A DNA stretch of 64,000 bases, from the NCBI GenBank assembly GCA_905250025.1, contig CAJNOJ010000206.1:119318-183317 (forward strand), read 5' to 3'. The notes under the pieces are model-generated. The model was not told the DNA's origin, ran no database searches, and saw only the letters and a list, made by a program, of their open reading frames with translations. Below, in pieces: positions 9,392 to 64,000 of this stretch (position 1 is its first letter; each line of letters starts with the position of its first letter). Origin of the DNA: Adineta ricciae (Eukaryota; Rotifera; Eurotatoria; Adinetida; Adinetidae). Made by a program: the position numbers and the translations under genes.

Positions 9392-9691
9392 AAGGCACTC
9401 GACCATACAACAGATCAAAATACAAAGGCAATAATTTATATAGGTCTTGATATAATCGAATACAGACAAGGAAAATATGAAGAGGCAATCAAATTCAATG
9501 AATTACTCCTTTCCTTACTATCTTGTGAAACAATTTTTTCCATAGATCAGTCATTCCTAACAAGCATTTATCAAAATATCGGTAGTACATACCACAGGAT
9601 GGACGACTATCGCAGAGCACTTTTATCTCATACTATAAAATCAATTGAAAAACTTTTGAAGGAAAGTAAAAATGGCTATATAGACATATAA
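9392..9691 (+). pseudogene. TPR-domain gene fragment
   Basis: An open stretch of 99 codons without its own start, bounded upstream by TAA at 9389. It encodes two TPR-like helical hairpins (EYRQGKYEEAIKFNELL and STYHRMDDYRRALLSH), the kinesin-light-chain-like type seen in the ART-TPR genes of this window. A neighbouring frame is open at 9147-9434 but has no recognisable domain. It is most likely a relic of an ART-TPR or TPR gene. Confidence 0.6.
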
Positions 9692-10271
9692 ATAATCGAA
9701 GTAAACGATTTACAACACCTTATTTAATATCATTATTGTTTTCTGCACCCGACTCCTATGTAATTTGTCAAAGAAGATATGATTTTTTGTAGAAAATTGA
9801 CTGGTATTCAAATATGCGTCGATTAATAAAACAGAGACTATGCAAAATGACTTGAAAATCTTTTTGTTGAACTATGTGTACTCACCCTCTCTCAAATGAG
9901 ATATTCTAATCACGTTTCAAAAAACTGATGCAAAGCAATTACAATATTCGAAGCTTTTACACAAAGAAACACGTTTCACGAAAACTTTCTTTGGCACGTT
10001 TATGATACCCTCAAATAGTGTAGATAAAAACATAATTATGGAGTAACGCTTGTATGATTGTATCAAAAAGCACGTGTGCATATGAATCGAAGGTAAGAAT
10101 ATTACATATTTACCTGTTTATTCATCATTTGAGAAGAAAAAAAATGAATGGAATAAGATCGATTTTTACTCGAAATTTCAATTGGTGTTCGAGAAAATCA
10201 AATAATAACTCGTCGTTCAGTTAGTTATTCAAGAGATTCTATTCTTTAATAAAGCTTTTGCTTCAATGTAG
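9692..10271. other. Region upstream of NADH dehydrogenase exon
   Basis: AT-rich, no clear gene. It ends at the acceptor CAATGTAG|, so a first exon carrying the start codon and probably a mitochondrial targeting sequence should lie in or near this stretch; it could not be identified. Confidence 0.4.
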
Positions 10272-10987
10272 GTGGACGATTAAAACGAAATGTAAGAAAT
10301 ATTATCATCGTTGGTATTATTGGTGTTGGAACATACCATGGTTATCGAAAATATCATCGTTATCAATGGATAAATGCAGTCAATGATTTGAATGAAAATC
10401 TTGGAAGAAAACCGCGATTAATTGTCTTAGGAACAGGTAAAACAAATGAAAAATTTCTTCTTATCGAAAAGATATGTGTAGGGTGGGGTTCTGTATCTCT
10501 TTTAAAACATATTGATACATCAAAATATGAAGTTATTTGTATATCACCACGAAATTATTTTCTCATGACACCATTATTACCATCAGTTAGTGTTGGAACA
10601 ATTGAAACTCGAACTGTTATCGAATCAATTCGATCATTAATTGGACCACATATTCAATTTCTCGAAGCAAACTGTTTTAATGTTGATATCAATTCCAAAA
10701 CAATTTCATGTAAGACAAATAATGAATCGAATCAGTCAACATTTAATCTGAATTATGATATTCTTATTGTTGGAATTGGTTCAGAAAATAACACATTTAA
10801 TACACCTGGCGTTGAACAATATGCACATTTTCTTAAAGAAATACCTGATGCTCGACGTATAAGAGCAAAGATTAGTGATGCTTTTGAATTTGCAATGATA
10901 CCAACACAAACAATTGAAGAAAAAAAACGCCTTTTACAATTTATTATTGTTGGTGGTGGACCAACCGGAGTGGAATTCGCTGCTGAA
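10272..10987 (+). CDS. Type II NADH dehydrogenase, N-terminal exons
   Basis: Exons 10272-10436 and 10482-10987 are joined by a 45-nt intron (GTAAAA...TGTAG), which gives the FAD-binding motif LGTGWGSVSLL. The first exon holds a probable membrane-proximal segment (IIIVGIIGVGTYHGYRK) preceding the Rossmann fold. Further motifs are SPRNYFLMTPLLPSVSVG, typical of NDE/NDH-2 enzymes, and the second dinucleotide-binding glycine motif IIVGGGPTGVEFAAE, where the next intron donor (GTATTT) occurs. The family oxidises NADH with quinone at the mitochondrial inner membrane without pumping protons. The first coding exon and the middle of the protein are missing, the latter because of the assembly join at 11010. 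Confidence 0.85.
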
Positions 10988-11010
10988 GTATTTATTTTTA
11001 TAGTTTATCN

Positions 11011-11204
11011 AATGTACGTAGCTTTTTATCAGCTTTTTCTAAGATAAGACGAAGTGTATCAACGGTTAAATAACCCGAATTTTCTTTGCAACAAGTATTG
11101 AAAAAGCATTTGCAGAAGCTGACAAAGAAAATTCGGGTTATTTAACCGTTGATACACTTCGTCTTATCTTAGAAAAAGCTGATAAAAAGATACGTACATT
11201 ACCA
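11011..11204. repeat. Hairpin at contig join inside NADH dehydrogenase gene
   Basis: Bases 11011-11088 are the reverse complement, with one mismatch, of coding sequence at 11127-11204, with a 38-bp spacer. The hairpin starts directly after the N at 11010. It replaces the expected central exons, so it is best explained as a chimeric contig end (for example an inverted artefact of whole-genome amplification). Confidence 0.75.
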
Positions 11205-11549
11205 GCAACAGCACAAGTTGCATATCAACAAGGTTGTTATCTCGCCAATTTATTAAATCAAATCAATGATTTCAAATCGATTCATTTTCAAGAAGGAAAT
11301 TTCGAACCATTTCGTTATAAACATCGAGGCTCATTGGCATATGTTGGTGGAGATTCAGCTGTTTTAGATTTCAATCATTCGAAGACGATTTTCGAAAGAT
11401 TTTCATTGAAATCATTATCTGGTCGTAGTGCTCTTTATCTATGGAAATCATTTTATTTAACTGAAATGTTTACTGGACGTACAAAAGCTTTATTAGCTTC
11501 TGATTGGATTCGTACTCGACTTTATGGAAGAGATATTAGTCGATATTAA
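11089..11549 (+). CDS. Type II NADH dehydrogenase, C-terminal part (EF-hand-like insert)
   Basis: An open frame of about 150 codons to TAA at 11547-11549. It carries an EF-hand-like loop (ADKENSGYLTVDT) followed by the family's C-terminal motifs: PATAQVAYQQG, PFRYKHRGSLAYVGGDSAV, LWKSFYLTEMFTGRTK and the terminal RLYGRDISRY. These match the membrane-anchoring end of external NADH dehydrogenases of plants and fungi, some of which carry a calcium-binding EF-hand at this place. The last loop position is Thr instead of the usual Glu, so calcium binding is uncertain. It belongs with the exons at 10272-10987; roughly half of the NADH-binding region is lost at the join. Confidence 0.8.
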
Positions 11550-12359
11550 ATCAATGACAAATTGTTCAGAAATACAGTTTGAATAAAAGATAAGATTTAT
11601 CAATATAGGATTCAAACTTCTAAAAACTAATTGCAAATTTATGATCTTTGATGACTCTTGTAAAATGAAAATGACTTTGGTATTTCCCTCGACTGAAAGG
11701 AAGGTCATATGAAAAAAAAAGTTTGTGTGGGTTTGTGTCAGGGTCGAAAAAAAACATTTTTTTCCGAAATGCTCAGAATTCAATGAAACATCGTTTGGAA
11801 TAGGTTTAAAGATCGACCGAGAATAGTTTTTATATAACAAGAGAAGACTCTTAGGTCTAAGAGAGAAATTTGCCGCAGCAATAAATTGACTACTCTAATA
11901 AGATATTACGGATATATACATGGACCAATTAGATATTCTCTGGGCTAGAGGGAGAATCATATAACGATAAATACTGTATATGGCAGTTTGCTTGTGCTAG
12001 GGTCAAAGATCGGCATTGACAGAGACTTCACGAACAGGATTCGAAGATCAATGAAACTAATCGATAACTATAATGGATTGTGACAAATTGGATATTTAGG
12101 ATGAATGAATTAGGGAATCAGTCATTCAATACATTAGATTATTTAGTTGTATGTGTCTCCTCTCATAACTTCTAGAAAATGAACGACATTTTCCAGCTGA
12201 AGGCCTTCTTCATTTATCATTTTGTTGAAGTAGCTTAATTTGTGAAGCATTGGAGAGAAAGACACGTGCTCATTAAGTAGACTATATGTACAATGCGCAA
12301 TATCGAGCAGTCGGGAGTGACGGGCTGGAGGAACGCCGACGACCGACTGCGAGATGACC
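11550..12359. other. Intergenic region after NADH dehydrogenase
   Basis: No supported gene. A 75-codon frame at 12143-12370 on the minus strand has no recognisable domain. Confidence 0.4.
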
Positions 12360-12545
12360 CAGATCAACAAATCCGATCGGATTCCTGGAAACGGAATTGC
12401 ATTGGGATCCGACTAGAAAAATCCCGTCGGTTGTTGCAAATTTTATGAGCGATCTTTTTAGCTATGTTCTATGATGACTCTTAGAAAATCCAGGAAATCC
12501 ATGTTTCGGATCCGAGTATAGGATTGTTCGACCTAGGGAATGGTT
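12360..12545. repeat. GATCC-rich dispersed repeat, copy 2
   Basis: Scattered GATCGGATTCC/GGGATCCGA words end with the conserved edge near 12510 (GAGTATAGGATTGTTCGACC) as in the copy at 3063-3260. The phrase ATCCATGTTTCGG is also shared with that copy, although at its opposite end. Confidence 0.6.
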
Positions 12546-12890
12546 TGATAGTTCTTTTGAAAAGTGCGGAGTGAAAAGAAAACCAGCTGAGACTTAAGTC
12601 ATCCTGCCTCGGCAAGCATTATCTAATTATTTACAGTTATGGGCAAAGGTGGTTTATCTCTATCATCAAAGTTGTTTCTGAATTTTTAACTGAAAACTAA
12701 CATTAGTTTGTACGCGAATGTCATCTTCAGTTTCTCGAAATAAAAAAGGTTTCAAGAAAATACTTCACTATATGACGCCTATTTTAAAAAATCAGTCGAG
12801 AGTAAAGCGAGTCTGCCTCGACGAGCGTTACTAAATTAGTTAAATAGGGGCAAATTATTTACTTTAAATGGCTTATCAAATAATTTTTAG

Positions 12891-13136
12891 ATAACAAGTC
12901 CACTTCATCTAACTATTTTTGAAGTGATAAATGGATTATCTAAACAGCATCAATCACGAGAAACTAAAGCGCCAGGTTTTGTGATAAAAACAATGGAAGC
13001 AGCATTATGGGTATGTTATCATATGAATTCATTTCAAGAATGTGCATTAAAAGCTGTTCATTTAGGAGATGATGTTGATACCGTCAGTGCTATTTATGGA
13101 ATTCATTTTATTCCTGTTGAATGGAAAGATAAATGA
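12891..13136 (+). pseudogene. ADP-ribosylglycohydrolase (DraG-like), C-terminal exon or relic
   Basis: After a TTTTTAG acceptor, 82 codons encode the C-terminal part of an ADP-ribosylglycohydrolase. It has GFVIKTMEAALWVCYH and the metal-binding block KAVHLGDDVDTVSAIYG, whose paired Asp residues bind magnesium in this family. The usual Gly/Ala-rich stretch after AIYG is shortened before IPVEWKDK and the stop. No upstream exon with the N-terminal metal site was found, so this is called a relic, though a diverged multi-exon gene cannot be excluded. The family removes ADP-ribose from proteins, the reverse of the ART activity encoded elsewhere here. Confidence 0.65.
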
Positions 13137-13644
13137 TGTTTCAAAGATTGTGTACAAACAATTATTGATGAAATAAAGAATTTGATGAAGATGTCAGAGA
13201 CTGGGTGAGTACAAGTACCGGAAGTATAAGTTAAAATATTTGTACTATAAAAATATCACTTTCAACTTTAACTTACCTATAATTACTTGAGTACATTCAT
13301 AGTCCGTACTAATACTCCAATAAATCTGTACTAAGTAAAAGGCTTAAGTAAATCTGTACGAAGTGGTAATATGTGAGTACTTTTATATTCAAGCAACAAC
13401 ATTATACACCTGTAATATGAAATACTATGCAATAGTATAAATCATTCTTGGATATCATAGATTAGCATTTATGTCTACGTGATTTTCCTTTGAATTGTAC
13501 GAGTATTTTCAATACAATATGCATTATGATGAAAGTAATTCAAATCCTTTTATCCGGCATCAAGTGAAGTATGAATTATTATCATCATAACTACGAGCAG
13601 TACTTAACATGTAATCATGTTCATGACAAACAAGAGATCCTCAA
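13137..13644. other. GTACT-rich noncoding stretch
   Basis: No gene. From 13200 to 13390 the words GTACTTAAGTA, AGTAC and GTACTAAG recur irregularly, giving a degenerate GTAC-rich repeat. Confidence 0.5.
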
Positions 13645-13775
13645 AACGCGGTAGGCTATCATTTTCCTGAAACTGTGGTTCCTATAACTGGTTCACAAAT
13701 AAAGTCCACAATAATTGTGAACTTTATTTGCGGAACAATTCTCGGAGCCACAATGTTGGGAAAATGGTAGTCATT
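13645..13775. repeat. Short foldback element
   Basis: Arms of about 60 bp pair around position 13710; both contain CAAATAAAGT and CATTTTCC words in opposite orientation. It is a MITE-like hairpin with no coding capacity. Confidence 0.65.
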
Positions 13776-14269
13776 CCAAAACACTATCGATTACATAATT
13801 CGGTCTTAGTGCGTTTTCTATTTCTCGCTAGTTGATATATGTTCTCACGAATAGCTGTTACACACACGATCTTTGCTATTGTCTGGCTAAGATAAAGTAT
13901 GAATGTGGTGTATTAGTATAGAACAAAGACAACCACACCCTAACTCTCCGCATTTGCATTATAAATTCTTTAATTATTCTTTCTTTCAATTATTTAATCA
14001 GAATATATACTCTTGTATTGAGCTGTTTGAATTATGACAGCCTGACATAAAGTTCGGTAATAGTAATCTTTACTAGTATACCTTTAATGATATAGTGAAA
14101 TCTTGCTAAATAACAAATAAAAAATATTTAAGACTAAAAAACAAAGACAAATATGCAAGAATATAATGCAAGTACATTTTTTAAACTTAGTACTGATTCT
14201 TAAGAGAGGGTCCATGAGAGGAGACCCCCCAGTAGCGGGTCAGGGGTGGGGAGGTGCGAGGGTGGGAGC
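13776..14269. other. AT-rich intergenic region
   Basis: No gene or repeat recognised; base composition turns sharply GC-rich at about 14220. Confidence 0.4.
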
Positions 14270-14272
14270 GAT

Positions 14273-14306
<34 letters not shown>

Positions 14307-14440
14307 CCCGGCCGCGCCGGCCCGCCGCGCCNNNNNNNNNNGAGGCGTGTGGGAGGGGGGGCGCCGCGGCGCGGGGCCTGGAGGGGGGGGGGGGGGGTGG
14401 GGGGGGGGCTGCGCCCCCATCCCCCCCCCCCCCCCCTGAA
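14270..14440. other. Assembly gap within G/C homopolymers
   Basis: Long runs of C, then GC-only sequence, ten Ns at 14332-14341, then long runs of G and C. The surrounding DNA is AT-rich. Open frames here encode only poly-Pro, poly-Gly or Arg/Ala-rich strings and are dismissed. A local sequencing or gap-filling artefact is the best reading. Confidence 0.8.
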
Positions 14441-15976
14441 AATTGTGGTCTGGCCCGCCAATGGAGACCTCTACTTTAGTGTAACGACGGTGAGGAAAAA
14501 AATTTTCTCGATTTTTTTTCCCATTCAAACGAAGGGCCTAGTTGAAATATATTTAAATCCAAAATAGCAAGTCGTTCGGTCTAGCCATTAAAAAATGGGA
14601 GCAGAAGCATAAATTTTTAGTGTTTTCAATAGTCCTATTTTATGGATCTTTCGAGAGTACCTAGTATCTGGACATTGTCTCATGAAAGGATTCACCGAGA
14701 GAACTCGGTGACGTCTCATTCGTTAGAGAACAGTTTAGGGTGTAACTTTACCATAGACGAATGTCTGATATCTAAGATTCATGAAATCTTCCAGATGAAG
14801 AACTGCTCAATACTCTAAACTCCGTACTATTCGAAATGACGGTATTTCCAGCTTTTTCCTTTCTCAACATGAACCGCCTAGACTTCTTTTTTTACCAGAG
14901 ATACATCTTTTGACATAAAGCTATATGGGTAAAATCACTGGGAGGTTGAGTTTCTCAGTACTACACTGGGTTCATCCCTACCCCGCGGCTATCGCTTTAG
15001 CCACCAGAGACCATCAAAAAGTTTTCTTTATCGAAAAACTAACATCAGATGCGAACTCAGCTCGCAAAACTGGGCCGGAAAAGTTATTTTTGTTTGATTC
15101 AGCACTCTCTTCTAGCGTAATCTCAGTACAGGACCTCTCACACCCTTCCCTTGTACATGAACGTATGAGTATGTGATCGGTTGCTCATCAAGTACAGAAG
15201 TTAGTGGGTGTGATTTTGGATCAGTTAGTAAATTTTATACATAGAAACAGTTACTGATATAATTTGTAGCCTGGAGACCATGATTAGTTGTGGTGTGACA
15301 CGACCCATTTGTCCGGAACCCCATGTACCACTTTTTAGACCCCTTATCGGCCGGATAGCGATTCCAAATAATCACAAGGGCTCAAAACGAATCTCATATT
15401 CAAAATCAGCATGAAAAACTAAGTCGATCCATATATATTTTAGAGAATTCTGACACAATTCATTTTTCCATGAAAAATGAACCTTGTACTCTTCCTGAGG
15501 TACGGCGGAAAATACTTTTTTCTGAAAAGCTAACATTTAATGAGTAGATTTTCATTCAATTTCATTATAAATTATAATAAAACGCGTAATGCTCTAACTC
15601 AGGCCACGAATTGTGTTATTTTCAAAAGAAGTATTTTTCCATCACACCTGAGGGGGAATTGATCGATAGAAAAGTTCCTATTTGACACTCTTCGATATTT
15701 TTTCTATCAATCTTCGTTAAAACATCGATCTGTACGACACTCGTTGACGTTATTGATGATTTCAAGGAAAGAATAACGGACGAAATAAGGAGCATCAACT
15801 CAGAGATCATGTACGAGGTATTTGGTATTAATGTTGAATGAATGAAATGATGTACTCATGAGACATTGGACACGCGCACATGAGCGATTTTCTAAACGAA
15901 AAACTTCAAGTCTTACTCTAACGAACGCAGAACAATTTTATTAAACTCTGTTGAAAAATCATTCAGATGTTTAAAT
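14441..15976. other. Intergenic region without recognised genes
   Basis: Short open frames at 14925-15176 and 15622-15810 have no family resemblance. The stretch at 15240-15400 is less AT-rich (GGCCGGATAGCG and similar words) and may be a repeat, but no second copy was found in the window. Confidence 0.4.
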
Positions 15977-16362
15977 TTACATTCCACGCGGGATTCTCGG
16001 AATATTGGGCAGACTGGGCAATCCACCACCACCATTAGCACATCGGGAACAGACGCATACCGCTCGATTTCCGCGAAATTCACACTGACTATTACCACAG
16101 TTGCGAAAGTTGCACGAGGCTCCACAAGCCAATTGCGCTACTTTCTCGCCAATTGGACCGTCATTCATTCGTGCACATGTTGAAAGGTAGAGGCCTTTTG
16201 GCTGAACATGTTCGAGCTGGTCGGCACTGACATNTTCATTCGTGCACATGTTGAAAGGTAGGGGCCTTTTGGCTGAACATGTTCGAGCTGGTCGGCACTG
16301 ACATTGAGAATGAGTGTTTCAAATAGAGAAAGAATAAGAACGATCAACATAGCGGACCGCAT
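15977..16362 (-). CDS. ASABF-like secreted antimicrobial peptide, left copy
   Basis: Reading from the ATG at 16362 gives a hydrophobic signal peptide (MLIVLILSLFETLILNVSA) and the start of the mature peptide, then a join at N 16234 duplicates 70 bp (16164-16233 repeats 16235-16304). Allowing for that overlap the gene would be 104 codons plus stop with no intron. The mature part has eight Cys, including CGASC (CxxxC) and CVCSRC (CxC..C), the cysteine-stabilised alpha-beta pattern. The order STCARM, KVAQLAC, CNFRNCG, CEFRGNRAVCVC and a Gly-rich tail closely resembles nematode ASABF antimicrobial peptides. The C-terminal tail (LPSLPNIPRIPRGM) differs from that of the right copy. The gene is divergent from its near-identical neighbour at 16768. 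Confidence 0.8.
16164..16304. repeat. Unmerged 70-bp contig overlap around N 16234
   Basis: Bases 16164-16233 and 16235-16304 are the same 70 bp with one substitution (GGTAGAGGCC versus GGTAGGGGCC). The substitution changes Leu to Pro in the peptide. Two overlapping contigs were placed end to end with one N between them; they may be different alleles. Confidence 0.85.
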
Positions 16363-16412
16363 CTTGAGTGTTGAATGCCGAAAAGATGAATTAAAATGGA
16401 CTTTAAACGGTA

Positions 16413-16419
16413 ATTTATA
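16413..16419 (-). promoter_or_regulatory. TATA box, left peptide gene
   Basis: TATAAAT on the minus strand, about 50 bp upstream of the ATG, at the same place as in the right copy and conserved in both arms. Confidence 0.5.
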
Positions 16420-16710
16420 CTCGAACATTTCTTCTTTCTTTACATTAGAATAAATGCCAATATGCTGATTATTCGTGCGTATGCTCACTAAATATTCTTA
16501 CTTTTCATCTTGATCATTAATCGTATGCTAATGTTTGGGACTTGAGACAAGTTATTATCATTTAGATGTGTAGGATGAATTGATATTTAAATATAAACGT
16601 TCTCACCCTATGCGCGTACATCATTATGATGTGCGTAATTGCATACATTAAAAAACAATCGATTAGCAAACGATGAAGAAAATTATGTAAAGAAAGAAGA
16701 AATGTTCGAG

Positions 16711-16717
16711 TATAAAT
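16711..16717 (+). promoter_or_regulatory. TATA box, right peptide gene
   Basis: TATAAAT lies 51 bp upstream of the ATG at 16768, which would give a 5' UTR of about 25 nt if transcription starts some 30 bp downstream. Confidence 0.5.
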
Positions 16718-16767
16718 TACCGTTTAAAGTCCATTTTAATTCATCTTTTCGACATTCAACACTCAAG

Positions 16768-17055
16768 ATGCGGTCCGCTATGTTGATCGTTCTTATTCTT
16801 TCCCTATTTGAAACACTCATTCTCAATGTCAGTGCCGACCAGCTCGAACATGTTCAGCCAAAAGGCCTCTACCTTTCAACATGTGCACGAATGAATGACG
16901 GTCCAATTGGCGAGAAAGTAGCGCAATTGGCTTGTGGAGCCTCGTGCAACTTTCGCAACTGTGGTAATAGTCAGTGTGAATTTCGCGGAAATCGAGCGGT
17001 ATGCGTCTGTTCCCGATGTGCTAATGGTGGTGGTGGATGGCCAGGAAAGAAATGA
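16768..17055 (+). CDS. ASABF-like secreted antimicrobial peptide, right copy
   Basis: The product is 95 aa in a single exon. Residues 1-23 form a signal peptide ending in VSA. The mature peptide of about 72 residues has eight Cys spaced C, C, C, C, C, C, C, C with CxxxC and CxC motifs and a Gly-rich end (NGGGGWPGKK). Motif order and spacing match the nematode ASABF family, whose members are secreted cationic CSalpha-beta peptides that permeabilise bacterial membranes. The ATG at 16768 is chosen over an in-frame ATG at 16639 because it directly precedes the signal peptide and follows the TATA box at 16711. Similar peptides are known from nematodes and a sponge; presence in a rotifer could reflect inheritance or transfer. 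Confidence 0.85.
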   Translation: MRSAMLIVLILSLFETLILNVSADQLEHVQPKGLYLSTCARMNDGPIGEKVAQLACGASCNFRNCGNSQCEFRGNRAVCVCSRCANGGGGWPGKK

Positions 17056-17234
17056 AGCGTTATATTCACTGGTAATTTTTTTCTGTGAATGATGACCGGA
17101 ACGATAATATACCTAAGGAAAGGATCGTAGTTGTTTCAATAAACACCTGATGCTTCTAATTAATTTTCCACAGTTTACTTGAATTAATACAACACTTCCT
17201 CTCAATCGTACTACGAAGCAACAAATCAGAAAAG

Positions 17235-17535
17235 CTAGTCCCGGCAACGTATCGAAATAGAATTTGCTGGGACGAGTGATATCTCGACTTGCTCCTGATA
17301 ATTTAAGCTTTCGACCACGATTTGAATGATTCGCAAAACATTGGTCATATGGTTTTTGCCACCAGTTGGTGGCAAATTGAATCGAACGATGAATTTTTTT
17401 CGCAACCCAGTGTCGATTAATGAATGTTGCACCAGCATCTCGAGCTTCACGTAAAACAATGCATTTGATTCTATCGATAATTCTTTGCTCTTCAGTATTA
17501 TAAGTATCAACCATTCGAGAAGCATTATATTCCAC
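17235..17535 (-). pseudogene. Tc1/mariner-like transposase N-terminal fragment
   Basis: About 100 codons resemble the N-terminal helix-turn-helix part of Tc1/mariner-type transposases: RHWVAKKIHRSIQFATNWWQKPYDQCF followed by GRKLKLSGASRDI. The catalytic DDE/D domain is absent; the frame runs on into unrelated sequence and stops at 17113. It sits 60 bp beyond the stop of the right peptide gene. It is a truncated relic. Confidence 0.55.
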
Positions 17536-18748
17536 TAATACACCGAACCGGTAGATTTTTTATGAAGGATACGACTTGGAAAATGACCTTATATATGGCT
17601 TCATAATCGTTTCGAACTTTCTTGTTCTCTAACTTTTCAAGAGAGAAAATTAAAATATCGTTTTCTTCACCGTCATCAAAACTTATAAATAACAGAACGC
17701 ATAAGGAAAACCAATATAGAAAAGAGCAGAATCCGATCTGTTCAGATTCTAAGGATTCCAGATGATTCCGATAGATTTAGTTGGATTTCAGTGGATTCTT
17801 TTAGATTCTAATAAATCCATTTTTGATTCCAATGGGCTCTTACAAAAACAAATATACTTTCTTATACGTATAAGGTAAAAATTCACTGCCTACTTTCAAC
17901 AAAACATTTTTTAATTATTTTACTATTTTAATGAGAAGAAACCTGGTCAAATTGGCCCTTTGATTTGCTCCATCTGCTGAAAGGAGTATAATGCGCCGAA
18001 CTGATATCACGAAAGAAAGAAGTTGATGTCTGTTAGCACGTTTAGTCACATCATCAACATATAGTATCATATATTTTCAAGGGTTGATCGAAGGGTTATC
18101 GAGGACGAGAAACATCTCTCATGAAATAATTGCATTCTAAATATGCTTCTACAGCAGTCATTTATCTAAATTTTTCTTGTGGATTCAAACGTGAAATAAT
18201 TCATAATTTGTTTCAAATGTCTTCGAATACAATATTTCAGTTTTTGGTTTGAAAGAAATTCTACCAAAAATCATGGTTTATTCTATTTAATACTTTATTA
18301 TTTTTAGTAATTTTCTGTATTTCTCAAGAGAATGCATATTTGAAAAAAAAACGTTGTATATGGTTGGTTCATCAAGCAGATATTTTGGCAGAAATATCAT
18401 GAAAATATTGTAAGAAAAGTCATCAAGAAAACGACATAGAAATATTTGGACTCGTACAGAAAGCATCTGCTCTTTTCTTTTTCTTTTTCTTTTTTAATTT
18501 ATTTGAGCATTCTTCGTTATTTTTCATTGCTCAGCTATAAGAAATGGCGTCTTTTCTGTTTTATCATCTACAATTTAGTTACAGCCGTCATCTTATGATT
18601 TTTATTTCCATTGTCAGTCATTATAAATAAGTATTTTCATCATATACCATTGCCAGTGTAAGTAAAAATCGATGACTGTTCGACTACGCTTCTTTATATA
18701 GATTTTTAAAAAGTCACAATTAGTTTTATATGTTCAAAGGTATTTCTA
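17536..18748. other. Intergenic region with GATTC-rich tract
   Basis: No gene. At 17728-17840 there are repeated GATTCC/AGATTCTA words, possibly a decayed relative of the GATCC-rich repeats. The rest is AT-rich. Confidence 0.45.
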
Positions 18749-19264
18749 ATGCATCCTTATCATGCAGAAATTGATGGATTGAGAGCAGTCACTGTATTAT
18801 CAGTTATCTTGTATCATGCTGGTTTAATTTAATTCTATTGACTCCTGGAGGTTTTATTCGTGTGGATATATTTTTTTGTCATTAGTAGATATTTAATTAC
18901 ATCACGTATTGATATTGAAATTACAAATGGGACATTTTCACTGATTCATTTTTATGAAAGACGATGTCGTCGTATTCTTCCAGCATTATATGTTATTTCA
19001 TTGATTAGTGCTTATATAGCCTTTTATTGGATGCCATATGAATTCTTAAAAGAATTTGGTTATTCGCTCATTTCTATTATTACTTTCTCTACAAATATAT
19101 TCTTTTGGTGGAATGATAGTTCATATTCCTCACGACGAATTGAATTAAATCCTGTGATTCGCGGCTGGAGTTTGGCTGTAGAAGAACAATTTTATCTTAT
19201 TTTTCCTTTATTATGTTATTTATTTACAAATAAGAAGTCTTATTTTATTACTATTCTCGGTTGA
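18749..19264 (+). pseudogene. Acyltransferase-3 (OafA/YrhL-like) relic
   Basis: The ATG at 18749 begins HAEIDGLRAVTVLSVILYHAG, the hallmark start of bacterial-type acyltransferase-3 membrane enzymes, which move acyl groups onto sugars. A stop at about 18829 and a shift follow. The next open frame (18860-19264) continues the family with FFVISRYLITS, FYERRCRRILPALY and the catalytic-region motif RGWSLAVEEQFYLIFPLL. The gene ends abruptly at about 19260, roughly 165 residues in, where a telomere-like tract begins; the remaining transmembrane helices are gone. Such genes in bdelloids are commonly attributed to horizontal transfer from bacteria; that origin is inferred here. Confidence 0.8.
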
Positions 19265-19305
19265 GGGTGAGGGTGAACGCATCTTGAGAGTGGGTGTGGG
19301 CGGGG
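19262..19305 (+). repeat. Telomere-like interstitial tract at gene breakpoint
   Basis: TGAGGGTGAGGGTGAAC, then GAGTGGGTGTGGGCGGGG. The tract starts exactly where the acyltransferase homology stops. It reads as a degenerate mixture of TGAGGG and TGTGGG units. Confidence 0.7.
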
Positions 19306-19539
19306 TGCGTGAACGTTGGTGATTGGACTCGGTGATCGGCGGCTCTGTTCCCTGAGTTGAGGATTTTGATGTAGGCTAGGTGTCTAGTTCTTGTCGATTT
19401 GTTTATGCGTTTACGGCCGGCTACCAGAAGACATTAAGCAAAATATTCTCTTTCTACATATTCTTTGTTCTGTAGGTGTAGTGGTTACCGGATTTGGGTT
19501 TGAGCTCTAATGAACCGAGCCTACGCGGGATGTCAATAT
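19306..19539. other. Less AT-rich spacer before foldback
   Basis: No gene. The segment at 19476-19520 has a tRNA A-box-like and B-box-like arrangement (TAGTGGTTACCGG then GGTTTGAGCTC), too compact for a tRNA; it may be a SINE-like head. Confidence 0.3.
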
Positions 19540-20100
19540 GTTACCTTTCGGTACCACTGGCCGTAAGGGGTCAAAAACTGAGAGAAGCTACTTTGCTCCC
19601 CGCGCTTGAGTTTCGGTATTTTAGCGTTAGTTTGGGTCCAGACTCTCATGCACGGCCACATTTTTACTATTTGTCCATCTCTTGCAGCTATAATCGACGA
19701 CATATCCAAGGAGTACTTGAAAACCTATGACAAAAGCGCAGATTTCACCCATTTCTCATGAAGGAACTCACAAGTTCACGCAGAGTTTAGGGAGATTCAT
19801 AACTCATCGTAATATTCATCTTACAATCATTATCAAGAGTTGTGGAAACTTAGAATCTGCGTGAACTTGTGAGTTCCTTCATGAGAAATGGGTGAAATCT
19901 GCGCTTTTGTCATAGGTTTTCAAGTACTCCTGGGATTTGTCGTAGATTATAGCTGCAAGAGATGGACAAATAGTAAAAGTGTGGCCGTGCATGAGAGTCT
20001 GGACCCAAACTAACGCTAAAATACCGAAACTCAAGCGCGGGGAGCAAAGTAGCTTCTCTCAGTTTTTGACCCTTTACGGCCGGTGGTACCGAAAGGTAAC
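19540..20100. repeat. Long foldback element, about 245-bp arms
   Basis: Left arm 19540-19785 and right arm about 19855-20100 are close reverse complements and both termini read GTTACCTTTCGGTACC inward. The spacer is about 70 bp. No coding frame. A related end fragment (TTTGGTACCATCCGGCCGTAAAGGG) lies near 20422. The class is probably a nonautonomous DNA transposon. Confidence 0.75.
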
Positions 20101-22194
20101 ATTCTTGTTTTCTTTGTATTATATATTATTCCAGGATTATTGTTACTGGTGAAACATATTGATAATCCATCCTGAAAAGTTCCATAATAGGGGACTTCAC
20201 ATAGACTTTAATTGTTGCCCAAAAAAAAGATAATTACGATTATATGGAAGTGTCAAGTAATATATGTTTCATTAGACTATTTTGAGATAGAAGATAGATA
20301 ATGAACTTCAACACACGAACAATAGAATTCACAATACCTGTCCTTAGTTATTATGAGAAGAGATCGATATTTTGTCCTAGTTTGAACGAGTTCTTGATGA
20401 AATAGTTTTCCGATGTTATCGTTTGGTACCATCCGGCCGTAAAGGGTTATAATGGAATATGACGCTGATGTGGGTTTGGGATGGCTAGGAGTGGTGTCAG
20501 AAGACAGTTGAAATGACTAGGGTGTTCCAACTTGTATGCAACTGCAACTGATCTTAGGAGTAATAAAAGAACGACGAATAATCGTATGTATTACCGTAGC
20601 TAAATGCACTGAAAGCGAAAAATAGAGATATCAAAAGGTACATTACCCAAAGTCACATGTGTCAAATGTAATTCTAATCCATTGAGTTAAACCTATTTAA
20701 TATATGGGAATTTGACAAAGACAGAGAAAGGAAACTTCTGCGAGTAAGTGATGATTATTGCTGGTGTTCGTAGTAAATTTGGATTCATGTTAAAAATATT
20801 CTTTTGTAGTTGAGTGTTTGTTACAGTTGGATTCATAAATCGGAGTTAGAGTTGCTTTTCCGCGGAGTTGCCTATTTCAGTGAGTGATGTCGTGGCAGTG
20901 AAGTTGATGGGCTGAAGTATGTAGATGAGGATGGGGATGCCTGGAAAGTGACATTGACTTAGAGCAGACTAAAATTAATGTTTGACGATCCATTTTTTTG
21001 ACTCTTGTGTATGCTTCGTGGCGCATTTGATATGTTGTGTATGGTTGTGATGTTGTTTGATTGAAGTGGCCCTAGTGCTTATTGTACTGTGTCATCGTTT
21101 CTTTCCTTTTATTGCATATTGTATTGGTAATATAAAATTGTTCGATCAATTTGTCTCACAATTGGGACACGAAAAAAAATGTCTGTCTTCCAGAGTCGAG
21201 GGTTAAGTGAATCGGCACGGCGAGCGCTACTTGTTTCATTGTGTACTTTTCTTCGAATTATTTTAAAAGAACTTAAAATTCATACATTTCTCCACTCATT
21301 ATATTGATTATTGTACTTAACAATAATAAAGAAACTCAGATAAAGTCGTCGATACATTAAATCAGCTCAAAATGAGTGTCATATGCAATCTGTTAGGCTG
21401 GGCTAAACCGTGTATACGACAAGTACATGAAGCGTGCTGAGAATTCTTCGGTTCGAAGCCAGCAGAATGGTTCTTGAGTCAAATCCGAATGCTGGCAGAT
21501 CGGTGGTGAAAGATTGTTGAAAACGATGGACTTTGTTATGAAGAGTAGTTATTATTTCTGAATAAGTTTGTGAATGAAAATCAACTTTGTCAAAAGTGTT
21601 GCAGAACTTTTTGCCCAACCTAATAATTGTTTGAACTGCGATTTTGGCCCTTTTCGATCATTATTAATTCAACAAGCCATCCAATGCTCTTCTAAGCCGA
21701 AGTGAAATCTGGATTATGGCAGCTAGTTTCATCCCCACACCCTTCTTCAGAATCACACGGAATTCATTTCGTTCGATGGGAAGATGAAACATTATGCTGG
21801 TCAAATGACTTTGTTTGAAAAAAATCTAATAATGTCTCTCCATCCAAATCGCAAACAATTCCACAGCCATAATCTGAAAACTGAAATAACTTTGGCTTAA
21901 AGTTTGATATTTGCCAAAGTCTCGGAGGATGAATTGAACTGGATATTATGAAAGCATTTCCACCTTCAGAAGCATCTACAGAACCTTCAATTTCAGAGCC
22001 ACTGTATTCATCGGATTCTGAATCTGATCCTATTTGAGATTTTATGTTGCTGAAAATTTCGTTGAGTTTATTCGCACTTGTTTCTTTGATTAACGCCATT
22101 CTATTGTTCATTGGGAGTAAAGAACGACGAAGCAAGATTTATTTCGTACAAACGCAAATTAAATCAGAATCAAAACACACATATGTGCTTTCCA
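20101..22194. other. Intergenic region; possible unknown coding remnant
   Basis: No recognised gene. The minus-strand frame at 21764-22135 (123 codons, with an acidic Ser/Asp/Glu-rich stretch SDSESDEYSGSE) could be the N-terminal part of a decayed transposase or a host gene, but no motif decides it. Other frames are short. Confidence 0.35.
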
Positions 22195-22339
22195 CAAGGG
22201 GGAAAAGCGAGACTTCATCTACTTTAGATAGTATTTGAAGTATAGTGAAACACAGTGAAGTATCGGCGAAGTACGACTGAAGTACCAGTGAAGTACGGAC
22301 GACGTAGTTGAAGTCTGAAGTCTCGCTTTTTCCCCCTCG
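22195..22339. repeat. Small foldback with internal GAAGTA repeats
   Basis: The ends AAGGGGGAAAAGCGAGACTTC and its reverse complement enclose several GTGAAGTA-type units spaced 13-17 bp apart. It is about 145 bp and noncoding. Confidence 0.65.
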
Positions 22340-22595
22340 GCTTCCCATTACCAAAGGGTTAATATACTGATGAAAATGCTACAATATATTTAGAGATAGC
22401 TTCCAACAAATTGTACTTTATCAGCCTTTACGGTAAATTTTTCTTGATTAAATTTCAAATGAAAGGAAAGGGGTTGTCTGCCTTTCAGCTTTTTCATTCT
22501 AAAATTACTTTTTCTTCTTCTAATCTTTTACGTATATAAATTAAAGAGATAAAATTTTGTGCGAATAAACCTTTATCTTTGTCTTAAACTTCATC

Positions 22596-23547
22596 ATGGC
22601 AGATCTAGCAACTATTCTTTCTATTCTTCAATTGGTTTTAATGAGTTTAGCCTTAGTTTTGACTTTGATCTATTCACTTTCAATTCTATCAAATCGTCGA
22701 TTTCATCATCAAAATAATATCTTTATACTTAATATCTGTTTTGCTATAATGACAAGTGCGATTTTTTTTCTTGCATATCTTAGCATATTAAATTTCAATG
22801 TGAAACTTTTCTATATTTCCAATATTTGCATAATTATGTACTATGCATATAGTATAGCAAGTATTCAAATACCATTTGCATTTGTGGCATTTACTGTACA
22901 TCGATTTTGTTTCATATTATATCATACTCGACCTTTCTTTCGAACAAACAAATGGGTGATTATTTGTATTGGAGGACAATGGATTAGTGAATTTCTTATT
23001 TCGTTACCGTTTATTATTAGATCACAACCAGTAAGTACTATACGGTTCTTATTTTACTTTCTTCAAAATTTGCTTTTCTTTTGTTTAGTATTGCCTTATT
23101 CCAGTATCATTACGACTTTATTTTTTTATGATAGTGGTCATCGTACCATCATTTATGAATATTATTTTGAATATTCGTATATTTGTCCATGTTCGATCAT
23201 CAAGTTATCGTGTTCGACCTGCATGGACTGCTTCTACAGTTAACAATGTAAATAACACTCAACAACAACAGCGCAACGCATCAATTAGTCGTCGAGAAAT
23301 ATCGCTATTACGCCAAATGATTTTTATGTTTACTATGTTTATTGGTGGTTGGACTCCAGTATATTTTATGCTATATCTTAGTCAAATTATCTACATCAGT
23401 GCAGTAATACAACTATTTGCTACAATATTATGCGAATTTGCTCTATTAAGTTCAATCATCAATTTATTTATTTGTAATCGTGAATTACGAGAATATTTAA
23501 TGAACAAACTTCGCTTTTGTCTTACACGAGGGAACGTATTTAGATGA
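22596..23547 (+). CDS. Rhodopsin-like GPCR with a one-base frameshift in a T run
   Basis: The ATG at 22596 opens a seven-transmembrane receptor: TM1 and TM2 (LVLMSLALVLTLIYSLSIL and IFILNICFAIMTSAIFFLA), then VHRFCF in place of a DRY box after TM3. TM4 has Trp (GGQWISEF), TM5 ends near position 23120. The frame is then lost at a seven-T run (23121-23127) and continues in the next frame as ATGATAGTGGTCATC to the stop at 23545-23547. That second part holds TM6 (FMFTMFIGGWTPVYFMLY) and TM7 (LCEFALLSSIINLFICN). The family resembles orphan rhodopsin-like receptors abundant in bdelloids; the ligand is unknown. A homopolymer sequencing error or a recent mutation would both explain the shift. Confidence 0.7.
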
Positions 23548-35414: not shown

Positions 35415-37188
35415 TCAGAAAGGATAAAAACAATAACTGTATTTTTGCTACGCCGCTAAACTAAAGTATTATGAAGTTTTTATTTCTTGATAAGGAGCCA
35501 TCAAGTCTTTTTCATTTAATTCTAGCAATAGTTTTGCCGCTTCTTGTTTTGCATCCTCTGGTGTAAAATGAAGTTTAAGAAACATTTCTTCGAGCTCAGG
35601 ACGCAACGATACTTCTTGAAAGCCTAACCATGCCACGTATCTGATTAACGTATTATAAAACGAGCGTGCCATAATCATTACTTTACGTTTCCATGAATCG
35701 ATGGGTATTGGCGTTGTAAGAGCATGTTTTTTAATAGCGCTAATTACATTCGTACGAGAAATTAAGTACTGATTTAATACGACATCTGGATTAGTTGGTG
35801 AACTTTTAATTGTTGATACACAAACACCATCGATAAAATTATATTTCAGCTTATTCTTAATATCATTACAATTTTCTATCCACCATTTATTTAGTGGATT
35901 ATCATGATCACAATTTGTACGTACAAATAAACATGGTATTCGATGTTCACATAAATTCTCTACAAATATTCGATAATTAGCTTTGAATTGTTCGGTACTT
36001 ATACGTGGATTTGAATGGCAACAAATTAATAAATTGATACCATTTGGAATTGCATATGCAAGTTTAATTAATTGAACGAAAGCTGTCGATGTTGGTACGT
36101 TTCCATCTGTACTTTCCGAAAGACCCGCTGTATCATATAAATTGATTGTCAAATCAGGGTAACCTTTGATCGATCCGGTAACTCTTGCATTATCCATTGT
36201 ACATCCTAATACACAATCGCTTGATTCAACGACAATATCATCATATATTAAATTGATGAGCGCACTTTTGCCAGCACCCGATTCTCCGAATATTACCACA
36301 TTGTATTCCAATTTATTTGGTGAGTTGCTTTCTTCAACATCAGACTGTTGACTTTCAGAACCTGAAGACATTCTCAATGTTAATAGTAATGAAAACTTGT
36401 AAATATTGTCCCCTTTTTATTATCACTTCTTCAATTATAGAGCTCTAACAAGTGCACGTTGTATCTTGGATTTTTCTTACTTTGCAGAATATAGGAAAAA
36501 ACCAGACTTATGCGACTTTTTTTTAGTTCTTATCTTTTATCGAAATATTTCACAAGGCGTCTGATGAAATATTTTGGGCTTCTACCCAGCAGATAAGGAA
36601 CGGTTTCGCCTTCTCTTTAAGAAAAAAAATTCTAGAAAAGAATCTTGTTGTCAGTAAGATTGCATACAAAACAGAAAAATTCATATAATTTGTTTTTTGT
36701 ATGATAGATACAATGGCAAAAGCCCGTGTTAAATATACATCGGATAGTCGAGTTGTACAAACACCTATTACATACAATATCCTATTAGCTGGTGAAACAG
36801 GAACAGGTTAATAGTTAATTTTTTCATTAAAATATTTCAACTCTTTTGCCTTCAAGGAAAAAGTGCAGTGATAAATATGATATTTGATGAAGATCGTGTA
36901 GAAACTTCCTCAGGTGCTATTGGCTGCACTAGAGATTGTAATTCAGTTCGTGGTACACTCAAAGAATATCCTCATATGAATTTAAGAATGGTTGACACAG
37001 TTGGTCTTGGTGAAAGTTTAGAGGGTGAAGTACCAAATGAACAGGCAATGAATATATTTCAAAATAAAATAGATAGTTTATATTCCAAAGATGGTATTCA
37101 TTTAATTCTATATTGTATTAGAAAAGGTAGACAATTAACGCCAACTATTGAACATTATCAAACAATTGTTCATGATTTATGTGAAAAA
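35415..37188. repeat. Segmental duplication copy B (GTPase pair)
   Basis: Matches 62166-64000 in the same orientation at high identity; the match continues to the window end, so the real unit is longer. Copy B lacks a 67-bp block present in B' at 62199-62265. Confidence 0.9.
35469..36371 (-). CDS. AIG1/GIMAP-like GTPase (copy B, minus gene)
   Basis: 300 aa, single exon, from the ATG at 36369-36371. A Ser/Glu-rich N-terminus leads to the P-loop GESGAGKS (29-36). The G3 motif is DTAG (80-83) and a G4-like motif TNCD lies at 152-155. The TRAFAC-class AIG1/IRG-like families share this arrangement. The C-terminal third is helical with a hydrophobic stretch (YVAWLGFQEV), and no clear lipidation site is seen. 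Animal relatives act in immune or stress responses at membranes; a defence role here is inference. The gene is divergent from the GTPase at 36713, with about 340 bp between start codons as a shared promoter region. Confidence 0.8.
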   Translation of the reverse strand: MSSGSESQQSDVEESNSPNKLEYNVVIFGESGAGKSALINLIYDDIVVESSDCVLGCTMDNARVTGSIKGYPDLTINLYDTAGLSESTDGNVPTSTAFVQLIKLAYAIPNGINLLICCHSNPRISTEQFKANYRIFVENLCEHRIPCLFVRTNCDHDNPLNKWWIENCNDIKNKLKYNFIDGVCVSTIKSSPTNPDVVLNQYLISRTNVISAIKKHALTTPIPIDSWKRKVMIMARSFYNTLIRYVAWLGFQEVSLRPELEEMFLKLHFTPEDAKQEAAKLLLELNEKDLMAPYQEIKTS

Positions 37189-49199: not shown

Positions 49200-52005
49200 A
49201 TGCGTGAAAAAAAACATGCTATAAATCGAAAGAAAGTACATATCGTTCGTTTTACAATGTTAAAAACAATTTGGTATCATTGTACAATTAAATACAGCGT
49301 CAAAGAAATTGAAAAAGATGCTGAATATGAGAAACAATTAGTCAATGCATTTCCTCAATTATTAACATTCACTGATATAAATAATTGTATTGATTACATC
49401 ACCGATTGTGATGATCGAACGGTCTCTTTGATTTTTTCCGACGTTCAAGGTATTCAATCTTTATCACTTATTTATCAACTTGAACAATTCATACGTATTT
49501 ACGTTTTGGAACCGATTTCATCGATTAAACAAGCATCAGATAATGTCATTATTAAAAATGTTCCTGTTATTTGTGGACCATTTAAACAAGTCAATAAATT
49601 AATTGCTCAGCTACATTGTGATGCAACATCACTGGAGAGAGCCACTTTTACAAATCCGTTCAATCTGCTTGTTGATCGTTTACATACAATTGATAATATT
49701 GACGAACAAGAAAATGACCGACTTCGCTTTCAAGTCATACTCACCGCTCTTCTGCGTTCGGATACTTCAACGGAGTTTGTTCGACAGTTGATGATTGATG
49801 AATGCCGTCAACATTATACAAATTTTAAGAACATAGTTTATCTATGAAAAATTGATGAATTTGAACGAGAAGAAAGTCGATTTTCCACTTTTCATTGGTG
49901 GTCACAAGATTCATTTGTCTATCGTTTGATTAATGAGGCACTACGTTCTCGTCATTGGAGTTCAATTATGAAGTATCGTTATTTTATAGTGAAGTTATAT
50001 AACGAAATAAAGAAACTTCATCAAGAGCAATTTCCAATAATACATCGAGATGATTCAAATAACCAACTTTTAGTTTATCGTGGTCAAAAGATATTTGAAC
50101 ATGATTGGAAATTATTAGAAAATAATGTTGGAGGATTAGTATGTATCAATTCCTTTTTATCAACCACTCTTTACGAAGATATTGCAATGCAATTTGCTCT
50201 CGCATGCCCAGAAGAAAAAACAGTCGCTGTTATTTTTCGAATTACACTTGATCGTCGTGTTTCGTCTTCAATTTTTGCTAATATCTCTGGTCAGAGCAGT
50301 ATGGGATATGAAGCTGAAGTACTCCTATCTCCAGGTATTGTGTTTCGTGTTGACAAGATCGCGTATGATGATGTGTTTGATCGATGGATTGTGAATCTGA
50401 TCGCTACTGATCCAGATAAAGATTCTTTACTTTCATTTATGCTATCCGAATCAGAAACATCAACTCTTGGTCAAGTGCTTTATCAAACGGGCGAATATGA
50501 AGCCGCACGTGATTACTGTGAATTGATGCTGAGATATTCAGATGAGCATCTTATTCATTATTCTATTCTTGGGAATATTTTCAAAGAAATACAAGAATAT
50601 GATCGAGCGCTTGAAAAATCATTCTAATGCTCTTAAACTTGTCACATCAATCTATCAATGTTCATTCATTTATTATAATCTTGGACTAGCATGTTTAGGT
50701 AAAGGCGATTATAATCGTGCACTCCACTATTATCGCGAAGCATATGAATTAGAATGCGTTGAAGGTGAAACAAAGCAACTAGCAGAAATCTGTCATGACA
50801 TGGGATTCGCCTATATCGAAATTGGTGCGTTGCGTCTTGGTGTAGAATATTTAGAAAAAGCTCTAGACATACAAAATACCGTCTTACCCGCAAATCACTA
50901 CCATTTAGGTTGTACATATACGAATTTAGGCGATTATTATCGTGCCCGAAATGAAAGTGGACAAGCCTTAGAATATTATCAGCACGCTCTTGATACATTT
51001 CAATGCTCACGACAGCATGATAACAATATCGTCGCTCAAGCTCATTTTCGTATTGCTCAGCTATATGTTTATATGCATCAATACGACATGGTGACAAGAA
51101 CGCTTGAACAGTTGGCGAAAGCATATGGAAGAATGGCTAACGGTTTAGGACTTGCAAGTGTCTATATGAGAATAGTAATCTATACGTATTATTCAACAGC
51201 AAATCTTAAGCAATGCGCTACATATACTGAGTATGTTCTCACAATTCGTCGACAGCATCTAGATGCCGATCATAAATTGATTGGAATCACACACTATATT
51301 CTGGGTTCACTTCAACTTGGAGCCCATATGCAATGCTTTCCAGCACATGACTTTGCTGCTCTAATCAATGGCCAAAAAAATCTTATGCGAGCGGCTGAAA
51401 TATTAAAGTCATGCCCCACTTATTCCATTAAAGTAATTGAAAACCTCGCTTTCGTTTACCGCCAACTGAAACTTTATGATAAAAAAATCGTATATTTTAA
51501 GCAGTCAATCGAGCATACATCAATTGATAGTGAATTTCTTCCACAACGCTATAAAAACCTAGCATCGGCTTATGGAGAGCTACATCAATTTAAGACTGCC
51601 ATTCGGTATTTAAAAGAGGCATTGCGTCTATACGATCAATCATCCAAAGTTACAGCAGATCGACAAATTATCCGCTGTCATGCTGTTCTCGGTACATTTT
51701 ACAAATATACTAAACGGTATAAGTTAGCATTGAAACACTTCTCTACTGCGCTTTCACTATGGCGAATGACAGCTGGTCCCATGGATGCTGATCATTCTAT
51801 CGGTGCAGTTTATTATCATACGGCTGATATTTATTACAAATTACGTTTGCCGTATCCGTCATCCATTGCTCAATACTTTTATTTCTGGAATCAGTATAGA
51901 ATTGGCCAGATGAATTCTCAGCGGGTAGCAAGATCATCATTAATGGACTCCGACCCTGGACACATCACTGGCTTTCTTATTCACATTGAACTAGATCTCG
52001 GCTGA
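49200..52005 (+). CDS. ADP-ribosyltransferase-TPR protein with two frame breaks
   Basis: The likely start is the ATG at 49200. The N-terminal variable domain (LLTFTDINNCIDYI, FIRIYVLEPISS) runs to an in-frame TGA at 49845-49847. The same frame then resumes through the ART domain, with LLVYRGQKIF (about 50078), the serine block INSFLSTTLYED (about 50147) and the ExE block YEAEVLLSPG (about 50307). At about 50615-50625, by an A run, a one-base shift moves into the frame that encodes about nine TPR units (for example LGLACLGKGDYNRALHYY, LKEALRLYDQ) to the stop at 52003-52005. The catalytic residues are kept. The gene is either a young pseudogene or carries sequencing errors. It is a diverged paralogue of the intact gene at 42614. 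Confidence 0.75.
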
Positions 52006-58780: not shown

Positions 58781-59212
58781 CACTATATGTACGATGATTT
58801 ACGGGTAGTAATTTAGTAATGAAAAGTAGAGATTTTACAGCAGCGAAAAACATTGTTTATTTGTATAACACGTGTCAACGTTTCAACTCAAGTAGAGTCA
58901 TTTTCAAGACAGCGAAAAAATGTGAGAAAAAAAATATTTATATCTTTGAACGTAATTGGAGATCAGACCAATGAAAGTTAATTATTCTTTATAAGAATTC
59001 TTATAAAGAATAATTAACTTTCATTGGTCTGATCTCCAATTACGTTCAAAGATATAAATATTTTTTTTCTCACATTTTTTCGCTGTCTTGAAAATGACTC
59101 TACTTGAGTTGAAACGTTGACACGTGTTATACAAATAAACAATGTTTTTCGCTGCTGTAAAATCTCTACTTTTCATTACTAAATTACTACCCGTAAATCA
59201 TCGTACATATAG
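58781..59212. repeat. Apparently perfect 432-bp palindrome (inverted pseudo-LTRs)
   Basis: The two 216-bp arms, 58781-58996 and 58997-59212, are exact reverse complements by eye with no spacer, centred on an EcoRI-like GAATTC. The right arm includes the start codon of the element's frame and its first 23 codons. Confidence 0.85.
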
Positions 59213-62164: not shown

Positions 62165-62165
62165 N
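62165..62165. other. Single-N contig join before copy B'
   Basis: The N sits between the retroelement's short right flank and the first base of homology to copy B (35415). Confidence 0.8.
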
Positions 62166-62287
62166 TCAGAAAGGATAAAAACAATAACTGTATTTTTGAC
62201 TGATGTTACCGACGTAACTAGGAATTCGCGCGTGGTCGGGCGTCGTCAAACCATGCTCATCCTTGGCTACGCCGCTAAACTAAAGTA

Positions 62288-63190: not shown

Positions 63191-63524
63191 TTTGAATAAT
63201 AATAGTGATGAAAACTCGTAAATATTATTCCCTTTTTATAATCACTATTTCAATTTATACAACTAAAAGATGCACGTTTTATCTTGGATTTTTCTTTCTT
63301 TGCAATATACAAATAACCAACTATATCATTGTTTTTAAATTTTTATCTTTTTCTAAATATGTCACACAGTGACTGATGAAGCTTTTCTGGGTTTTTTCCA
63401 GTAGCTAAGGGTCTCGTTCTTCTTATCTATATGAAAGAGTCTTTTAGAAAAGAACATTGTTGTCAGTAAGATTGCATACAAAACAGAACATTTCATATAA
63501 TTTGTTTTTTGTATGATAGATACA

Positions 63525-64000
63525 ATGGCAGATGCCCGTGCTAAACATACATCGAATTGTCGAGTCGTACAAACACCTATTACATACAATATCCTATTAG
63601 CTGGTGAAACAGGGACAGGTTAATAGTTAATGTTTTCATTAAAATATTTGAATTCTTTATTCTTCAAGGAAAAAGTGCAGTGATAAATATGATATTTGAT
63701 GAAGATCGTGTAGAAACTTCCTCAGGTGCTATTGGCTGCACTAGAGATTGTAGTTCCGTTCGTGGTACACTCAAAGAATATCCACATATGAATTTAAGAA
63801 TGGTTGACACAGTTGGTCTAGGTGAAAGTTTAGAGGGAGAAGTACCAAATGAACAGGCAATGAATATATTTCAAAATAAAATAGATAGTTTATATTCCAA
63901 AGATGGTATTCATTTACTTCTATATTGTATTAGAAAAGGTAGACAATTAACGCCAACCATCGAACATTATCAAACAATTGTTCATGATTTATGTGAAAAA
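63525..64000 (+). CDS. AIG1/GIMAP-like GTPase (copy B', plus gene), cut by window end
   Basis: Exon 1 is 63525-63618, a 50-nt intron follows (63619-63668), and exon 2 runs from 63669 past the window end. The intron again splits the P-loop GETGTGKS at the same base as in copy B. The DTVG switch motif is kept. The visible 142 codons differ from copy B at a few N-terminal residues only ([10 protein letters not shown] against MAKARVKYTS). The remaining half is outside the window. Confidence 0.8.

Follow-up and report, generated by a model that had tools for sequence, protein, structure and literature searches.

We find that a stretch of 64,000 nt from Adineta ricciae contig C206 (hereafter the window, with positions counted from its first letter unless a contig is named) carries a head-to-head pair of genes for ABF-type antimicrobial peptides. 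The pair lies in a 9.5-kb block (11686..21233, + strand) that has transposon termini at both ends; a sister copy of the region lacks this block and has the empty site at C206:107619/107620. The ABF family is resident in this bdelloid genome and is represented there by at least two types. We favor a history, to which we give a probability of roughly two in three, in which the pair comes from this resident family and was carried as cargo by rolling-circle transposition past a terminator into its present site.

The right-hand gene (16768..17055, + strand) is intact. It is a single open reading frame for an ABF-type antimicrobial prepropeptide of 95 aa, which has a hydrophobic N-terminus and, in its translation, eight cysteines at positions 39, 56, 60, 65, 70, 79, 81, and 84. 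The spacing of these cysteines is found at two places in the six-frame translation of the window, versus none in 50 triplet-shuffled windows; its presence is not due to chance. The peptide matches the Pfam profile Antimicrobial25 (PF16839) with 72.8 bits, for a cut-off of 27 (E 2.3e-20), and the solved chains closest to it in the PDB are Blo t 19 (2mfj), Ce-ABF2 (5ix5), and ASABF (2d56), such that 3 out of 3 matches at E<=10 are ABF-type. Both results bear out the initial annotation, which had placed the peptide in an ASABF-like family. Inspection by eye shows that C39, C56, C60, S68, C70, C79, and C81, with C65 and C84 in addition, follow the eight-cysteine ABF/ASABF consensus C-X(3,18)-C-X3-C-X(7,9)-[GS]-X-C-X(4-13)-C-X-C quoted in PMC3210614. 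These comparisons of sequence support the view that the window genes encode members of the ABF/ASABF family. The N-terminal hydrophobic run reaches a maximum 11-aa mean hydropathy of 3.1 and is a putative signal peptide, judged by hydropathy only. Supposing cleavage before Gly33, the product would have a charge of ~+4.7 at pH 7 and a pI of ~8.9. Both structure models were of low confidence, and a structural comparison of the model gave no ABF chain among the matches listed, which we put down to the low-confidence model.

The left-hand gene (15977..16362, - strand) is broken by a single N at 16234. As assembled, its eight-cysteine half lies at 15977-16233 and its signal-peptide half at 16235-16362, and no single frame holds the signal peptide plus the eight cysteines. 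The mature half scores 75.2 bits against PF16839 (E 4.1e-21). Since the same 70 nt, with one mismatch, are found on either side of the N (16164-16233 and 16235-16304), we infer that this N most probably marks two overlapping contig ends that were left unmerged. The initial annotation had described two divergent genes, each with a signal peptide and eight cysteines: the right-hand gene and the head-to-head layout stand, but the left-hand gene is not one open reading frame. In a self-comparison of the window, the two genes fall into the arms of an inverted duplication (left arm 16017..16445, right arm 16685..17042). The arms are identical over 217 nt (16017-16233 and 16826-17042, 100%) and match at 99% over 211 nt (16235-16445 and 16685-16895). 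They are separated by a spacer of 239 nt (16446..16684) that lies within the divergent promoter region. The motif TATAAA is found upstream of the right start at 16711 (+) and upstream of the left start at 16414 (-), and a third time at 16592, within the spacer. Against immune-element consensus sequences, the promoter region gave no kB-like match and one GATA match on the minus strand; a bacterial promoter scan was uninformative.

ABF-family peptides kill bacteria by acting on membranes. The window genes would stand under promoters that face away from each other and yield secreted antibacterial products. Removal of the signal peptide and of a short pro-part would be followed by the formation of four disulphides, and the outcome, by analogy with the family, would be a secreted cationic CS-alpha-beta peptide with antibacterial action. 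The pairing of the disulphides in ABF is given as C1-C5, C2-C6, C3-C7, and C4-C8 in PMC5116183.

The genome assembly (130 Mb in 1033 contigs) has ABF genes on three contigs, of 183, 465, and 375 kb. In addition to the window pair, C88 carries an intact gene, which encodes 92 aa with ten cysteines, and C57 has a counterpart, whose frame is without an ATG at the place where C88 has one; their PF16839 scores are 72.5 and 69.5 bits, respectively. Around these two genes, the contigs align over 3.2 kb with 91% identity. By Pfam, the neighbours of the C57 gene encode an NHL-repeat protein on one side and an RNA ligase on the other, and similar ORFs flank the C88 gene. Degenerate ABF relatives with stops were found at C57:185543 and C88:260172. 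The collinear intact and degenerate copies on these two homologous contigs point to a long residence of the family. The initial annotation did not include this second type, the degenerate copies, or the transposon-bounded, presence/absence character of the block around the window pair. Between the mature parts of the C57 and C88 genes there are ~3.7 nonsynonymous and 6.3 synonymous changes (dN/dS 0.16, from few sites). In the PDB search with the C88 peptide, we took two other listed chains, whose E values were 1.1 and 2.1, as chance matches. The C88 variant (L009, 1474-1752) owes its ten cysteines to an additional CC pair and a cysteine at the C-terminal end, which possibly form a fifth disulphide. 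Among viral contigs and prokaryote genomes, no relative was confirmed by tblastn, and 1 of the 14 control genomes in the ABF search (Methanosarcina acetivorans) gave a signal below the cut-off.

The host itself had been called a bdelloid in the initial annotation, and its receptor genes agree. A gene on C202, with one open frame of 896 codons, matches the ligand-binding domain of AvGluR1, the receptor of Adineta vaga, at E 2e-130, and this is the sole PDB sequence at <=1e-60. AvGluR1 is again the best match of a second receptor gene. The sequence matches therefore support a bdelloid host genome. Two AMPA-type receptors were uninformative on the host, as the best 60 chains listed for them were other glutamate receptors, and a bdelloid spliced-leader pattern gave no match in the genome.

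The empty site came from a DNA search of the host's own genome with window positions 9500-23500, in which 39 of the 879 candidates were scored. It revealed a collinear sister copy on the same contig (C206:104720-109867) from which 9.5 kb, including the ABF pair, are missing. In the sister copy, positions 11685 and 21234 meet directly, overlapping by 2 nt, and the flanks match at 96.7% over 603 nt on the left and at 91.5% over 177 nt on the right. The site has 4 T in the sister copy versus 3+3 in the filled site and, because it is a T run, the 2-T overlap is indistinguishable from a target duplication. One copy only of the block was seen in the genome. The sister copy is on the same scaffold and could be either an allelic copy or the product of an old tandem duplication. 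At a larger scale, C206:104.6-122.4 kb and window positions 9390-34423 contain the same region twice in series, in pieces of 79-97% identity, and the first of these serial copies ends at a single N (3062). The two are perhaps homologues placed in tandem by the scaffolder.

At its left edge, the block starts with a Helentron-like element, A1 (11686..12834, + strand), with the 5' terminus CCCTCGACTG and a 3' end of its own near 12830-12834. That A1 is an independent element is shown by a stand-alone relative of ~1 kb on C536 (L058), which shares its 5' end and its 3' part as far as 12830 and matches 11686-11748, 12081-12357, and 12542-12830. Among 40 scored of 200 candidates, 11 genome pieces stop exactly at 12830. 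At its right edge, the block closes with a second Helentron-like element, TE-B, which is represented by its 3' part (19297..21233, + strand), is known from dispersed copies, and has, marked against the following base, the terminus GAGCGCTACTTG|T. Nested in TE-B is a palindromic element (19410..20449) with copies on C259 and C416 at 89-90% and a self-palindrome at 19538-20102. The 5' end of the dispersed copies is CCCTCGACTG, or TCCTCGGCTG in one of them, and it follows TT in 6 out of 7 and TC in the C536 copy. The 3' end is CTTG (CTCG once) and is followed by T in 12 of 12 rows, from 11 distinct copies. In these counts, rows more than 15 nt off the 3' terminus or more than 12 nt off the 5' terminus were dropped, and a 3'-end count whose query ended at the boundary was left out of the boundary evidence. 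The repeat CCCTCGACT stands at the 5' end, and its inverse AGTCGAGGG, also 9 nt, is ~30 nt inside the 3' end.

The elements resemble Helentrons and HINEs (DINE-1-like elements; PMC4067079) in their 5' and inset 3' inverted repeat, with a subterminal repeat of 9 nt here versus the 12-15 bp given for the mite families of that study, and they may also share the T-rich target and the clean, paralogous empty site described there. They differ from them by a weak 3' stem-loop, the size of 9.5 kb (versus ~1 kb for the stand-alone relative), and the presence of a complete gene with its inverted copy aboard. Because the 3' hairpin is weak (the fold, computed for the window copy only, is no better than shuffles, z +1.75), we call them Helentron-like without assigning them to that group. 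The genome has 37 matches to Rep domains of the Helitron_like_N type, with longest open frames of 2070 and 1536 aa, and none of the 37 was linked to the element ends of the block.

Between the two elements, the block carries, in addition to the ABF pair, pieces of two other genes that appear to have been captured. One is a C-terminal ADP-ribosylglycohydrolase fragment (12891..13136, + strand; PF03747, E 1e-9, profile positions 219-272 of 287) and the other an acyltransferase-3-like fragment (18842..19264, + strand; PF01757, E 1.4e-6, profile positions 51-156 of 326) whose 28 bits are under the cut-off of 31. A stretch of dispersed repeat lies in the cargo at about 17271-17709. As it is a repeat of this genome, it suggests that the cargo came directly from a rotifer genome, provided that the repeat did not insert later. 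Among 40 scored of 200 candidates, we found no near-identical donor locus: besides the dispersed repeats, there was one 128-nt match at 85% (C901), and the others were at 66-75%. The 5' part of the window element matches five typical copies over only ~63-115 nt, and in one of these copies (L052) ~160 further nt before the next common piece are without counterpart in the window. We tried a model in which a typical copy was split by a later insertion and rejected it, since a stand-alone relative of A1 exists and read-through is simpler.

In the history that we favor, rolling-circle transposition would have started at the Helentron-like 5' terminus (11686), overrun the element's own 3' end (~12834), and copied the adjoining DNA, including the ABF pair and the pieces of two other genes. 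It would have halted at the 3' end of the second, related element (21233), and the 9.5-kb product would then have inserted into the T-rich site that is still empty in the sister copy. A missed A1 terminator and a stop at the 3' end of the next element would give exactly the observed order of parts. Terminator bypass is described as the prevailing explanation of Helitron capture in the review PMC6431247. Since the same review calls full-length gene capture by Helitrons exceptionally rare, a promoter-bearing defence pair, of which one gene is intact in the assembly, in a block missing from the sister copy makes a good case for studying the shuffling of defence genes in asexual animals. Capture of antimicrobial peptide genes by Helitrons was not reported in the open-licence literature that we searched, and a bdelloid NRPS gene has been reported as mobilised with transposons (PMC11258130). 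A broader proposal, which we regard as distinctly unlikely, would make rolling-circle transposons a vehicle for intact animal immune genes. The ABF pair would then have moved as a promoter-bearing cassette within, and perhaps between, the genomes of soil and moss animals (nematodes, bdelloids), and an asexual animal would rely on transposon-borne presence/absence variation, in place of sex, to renew its set of antimicrobial peptides.

Some of the alternatives to this history concern the assembly. If the head-to-head pair were an artefact made from one gene with two alleles, one would expect arms of 99-100% identity and a join at an unmerged 70-nt overlap, as observed. However, both 5' ends and the 239-nt spacer share one gap-free stretch from 16235 onward, and the two genes differ in their C-terminal tails (GGGGLPSLPNIPRIPRGM versus GGGGWPGKK), in their 3' flanks, and in the position of AATAAA, 34 nt past the left stop codon and 82 nt past the right one. 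We thus deem such an artefact rather unlikely. We also judge it unlikely that the 9.5-kb block is ancestral and was lost from the sister copy, or that it results from a scaffolding error. Gaps do occur inside the block, at 14332-14341 (10 N) and 16234, and the stretch 14342-16233 is tied in only by this 10-N gap and the overlap join; there are other single-N joins in the window, and the match to the sister copy stops at one of them (3062). Against this, the junctions lie on gap-free stretches (11011-14331 and 16235-62164) and coincide with termini of dispersed elements. Because these two separate stretches point to one and the same sister position, the junctions testify independently and the joins are supported. 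A deletion would moreover have had to excise both transposons together with the cargo that they enclose, with an accuracy of two bases. Contamination of the assembly by a nematode could account for the closest named relatives being nematode peptides, yet it is very improbable: the ABF genes are on three large contigs, two of them collinear and with like genes flanking, and dispersed transposons of the same genome directly adjoin the window pair. On the strength of the collinear C57 and C88 loci, of the neighbouring genes, and of these transposons, the earlier claim that a rotifer carries an ABF gene holds.

How the family reached bdelloids is a more balanced question. The best match of the window type is Blo t 19, with 63% identity (38/60). 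The two have CARMNDG...KVAQ...SC..NCG...C..R..R..CVCSRC.NGGG in common and differ in their host, in the prepro part and tail that the window peptide has of its own, and in 22 of the 60 aligned residues. Blo t 19 was reported from a mite and has been judged a nematode contaminant and not a mite gene (PMC10542617). With Ascaris ASABF (2d56) and C. elegans ABF-2 (5ix5), the window type shares the eight-cysteine arrangement and the CARM/CVC.RC motifs, at 57% identity. These two are nearest to the ten-cysteine C88 type, which is 67% identical to ASABF (33/49) and 65% to Ce-ABF2 (35/54). The two rotifer types are 55% identical (29/53), and by these alignments each is nearer to a nematode peptide than to the other rotifer type, a pattern to be expected from two transfers as well as from an ancient duplication. 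Acquisition from nematodes by horizontal transfer, perhaps in two events with one ASABF/Ce-ABF2-like source and one Blo t 19-like source, would explain these identities and accords with the judgement on Blo t 19, and both complete ORFs (the window right gene and C88) need no intron. We consider it possible, somewhat short of an even chance. A deep duplication predating the nematode-rotifer split would yield these identities as well, and the five sequences compared, with ~50 aligned aa each and rotifer members from this one genome, are too few and too short for a reliable tree that could decide on transfer. The ASABF-type peptide described from the sponge Suberites domuncula (PMC3210614), a non-nematode member with eight cysteines, also speaks against transfer. 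The alternative of vertical descent, in which an ancient peptide family of animals has disappeared from most phyla or gone unnoticed there, is to our mind evenly poised between being right and wrong. It accords with the long residence of the family on C57 and C88, with a cysteine pattern that is also that of mollusc defensins (PMC5116183), and with a faint Pfam match of the window peptide to the mussel Myticin-prepro profile (11.2 bits, E 0.45, under the cut-off of 28.5). However, when the PDB was searched with a profile of the rotifer peptides, ABF chains were the only matches up to E 10, with no mollusc defensin. The nematode identities are also far over the 27% given for the S. domuncula peptide versus A. 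suum ASABF-gamma (PMC3210614); by this published figure, through which we compared it, the sponge peptide is far less nematode-like than the rotifer peptides. If confirmed, our observations extend the ABF family to rotifers, for which none of the open-licence papers listed in our searches reports ABF genes. The presence of two nematode-like types in one rotifer makes animal-to-animal transfer testable.

Some other features of the window deserve mention. The sequence around the 10-N gap (14240-14440) is a very G+C-rich poly-C/poly-G stretch, versus 34% GC in the window. A GTPase gene region is repeated at 35444-37188 and 62263-64000 with 91.9% identity, the second copy being just past a single N at 62165. 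A perfect palindrome (432/432 nt, 58782-59213) overlaps the start of a reverse-transcriptase ORF (59139-62036, PF00078) and is explained either by an artefact of the assembly or by a structure at the terminus of this retroelement. Finally, an ADP-ribosyltransferase domain with TPR repeats is found at 49848-50624, near other TPR-rich ORFs, with scores just over the Pfam cut-offs (PF03496 26.4 bits, PF01129 24.1 bits); the transposon block holds the ADP-ribosylglycohydrolase fragment noted above.
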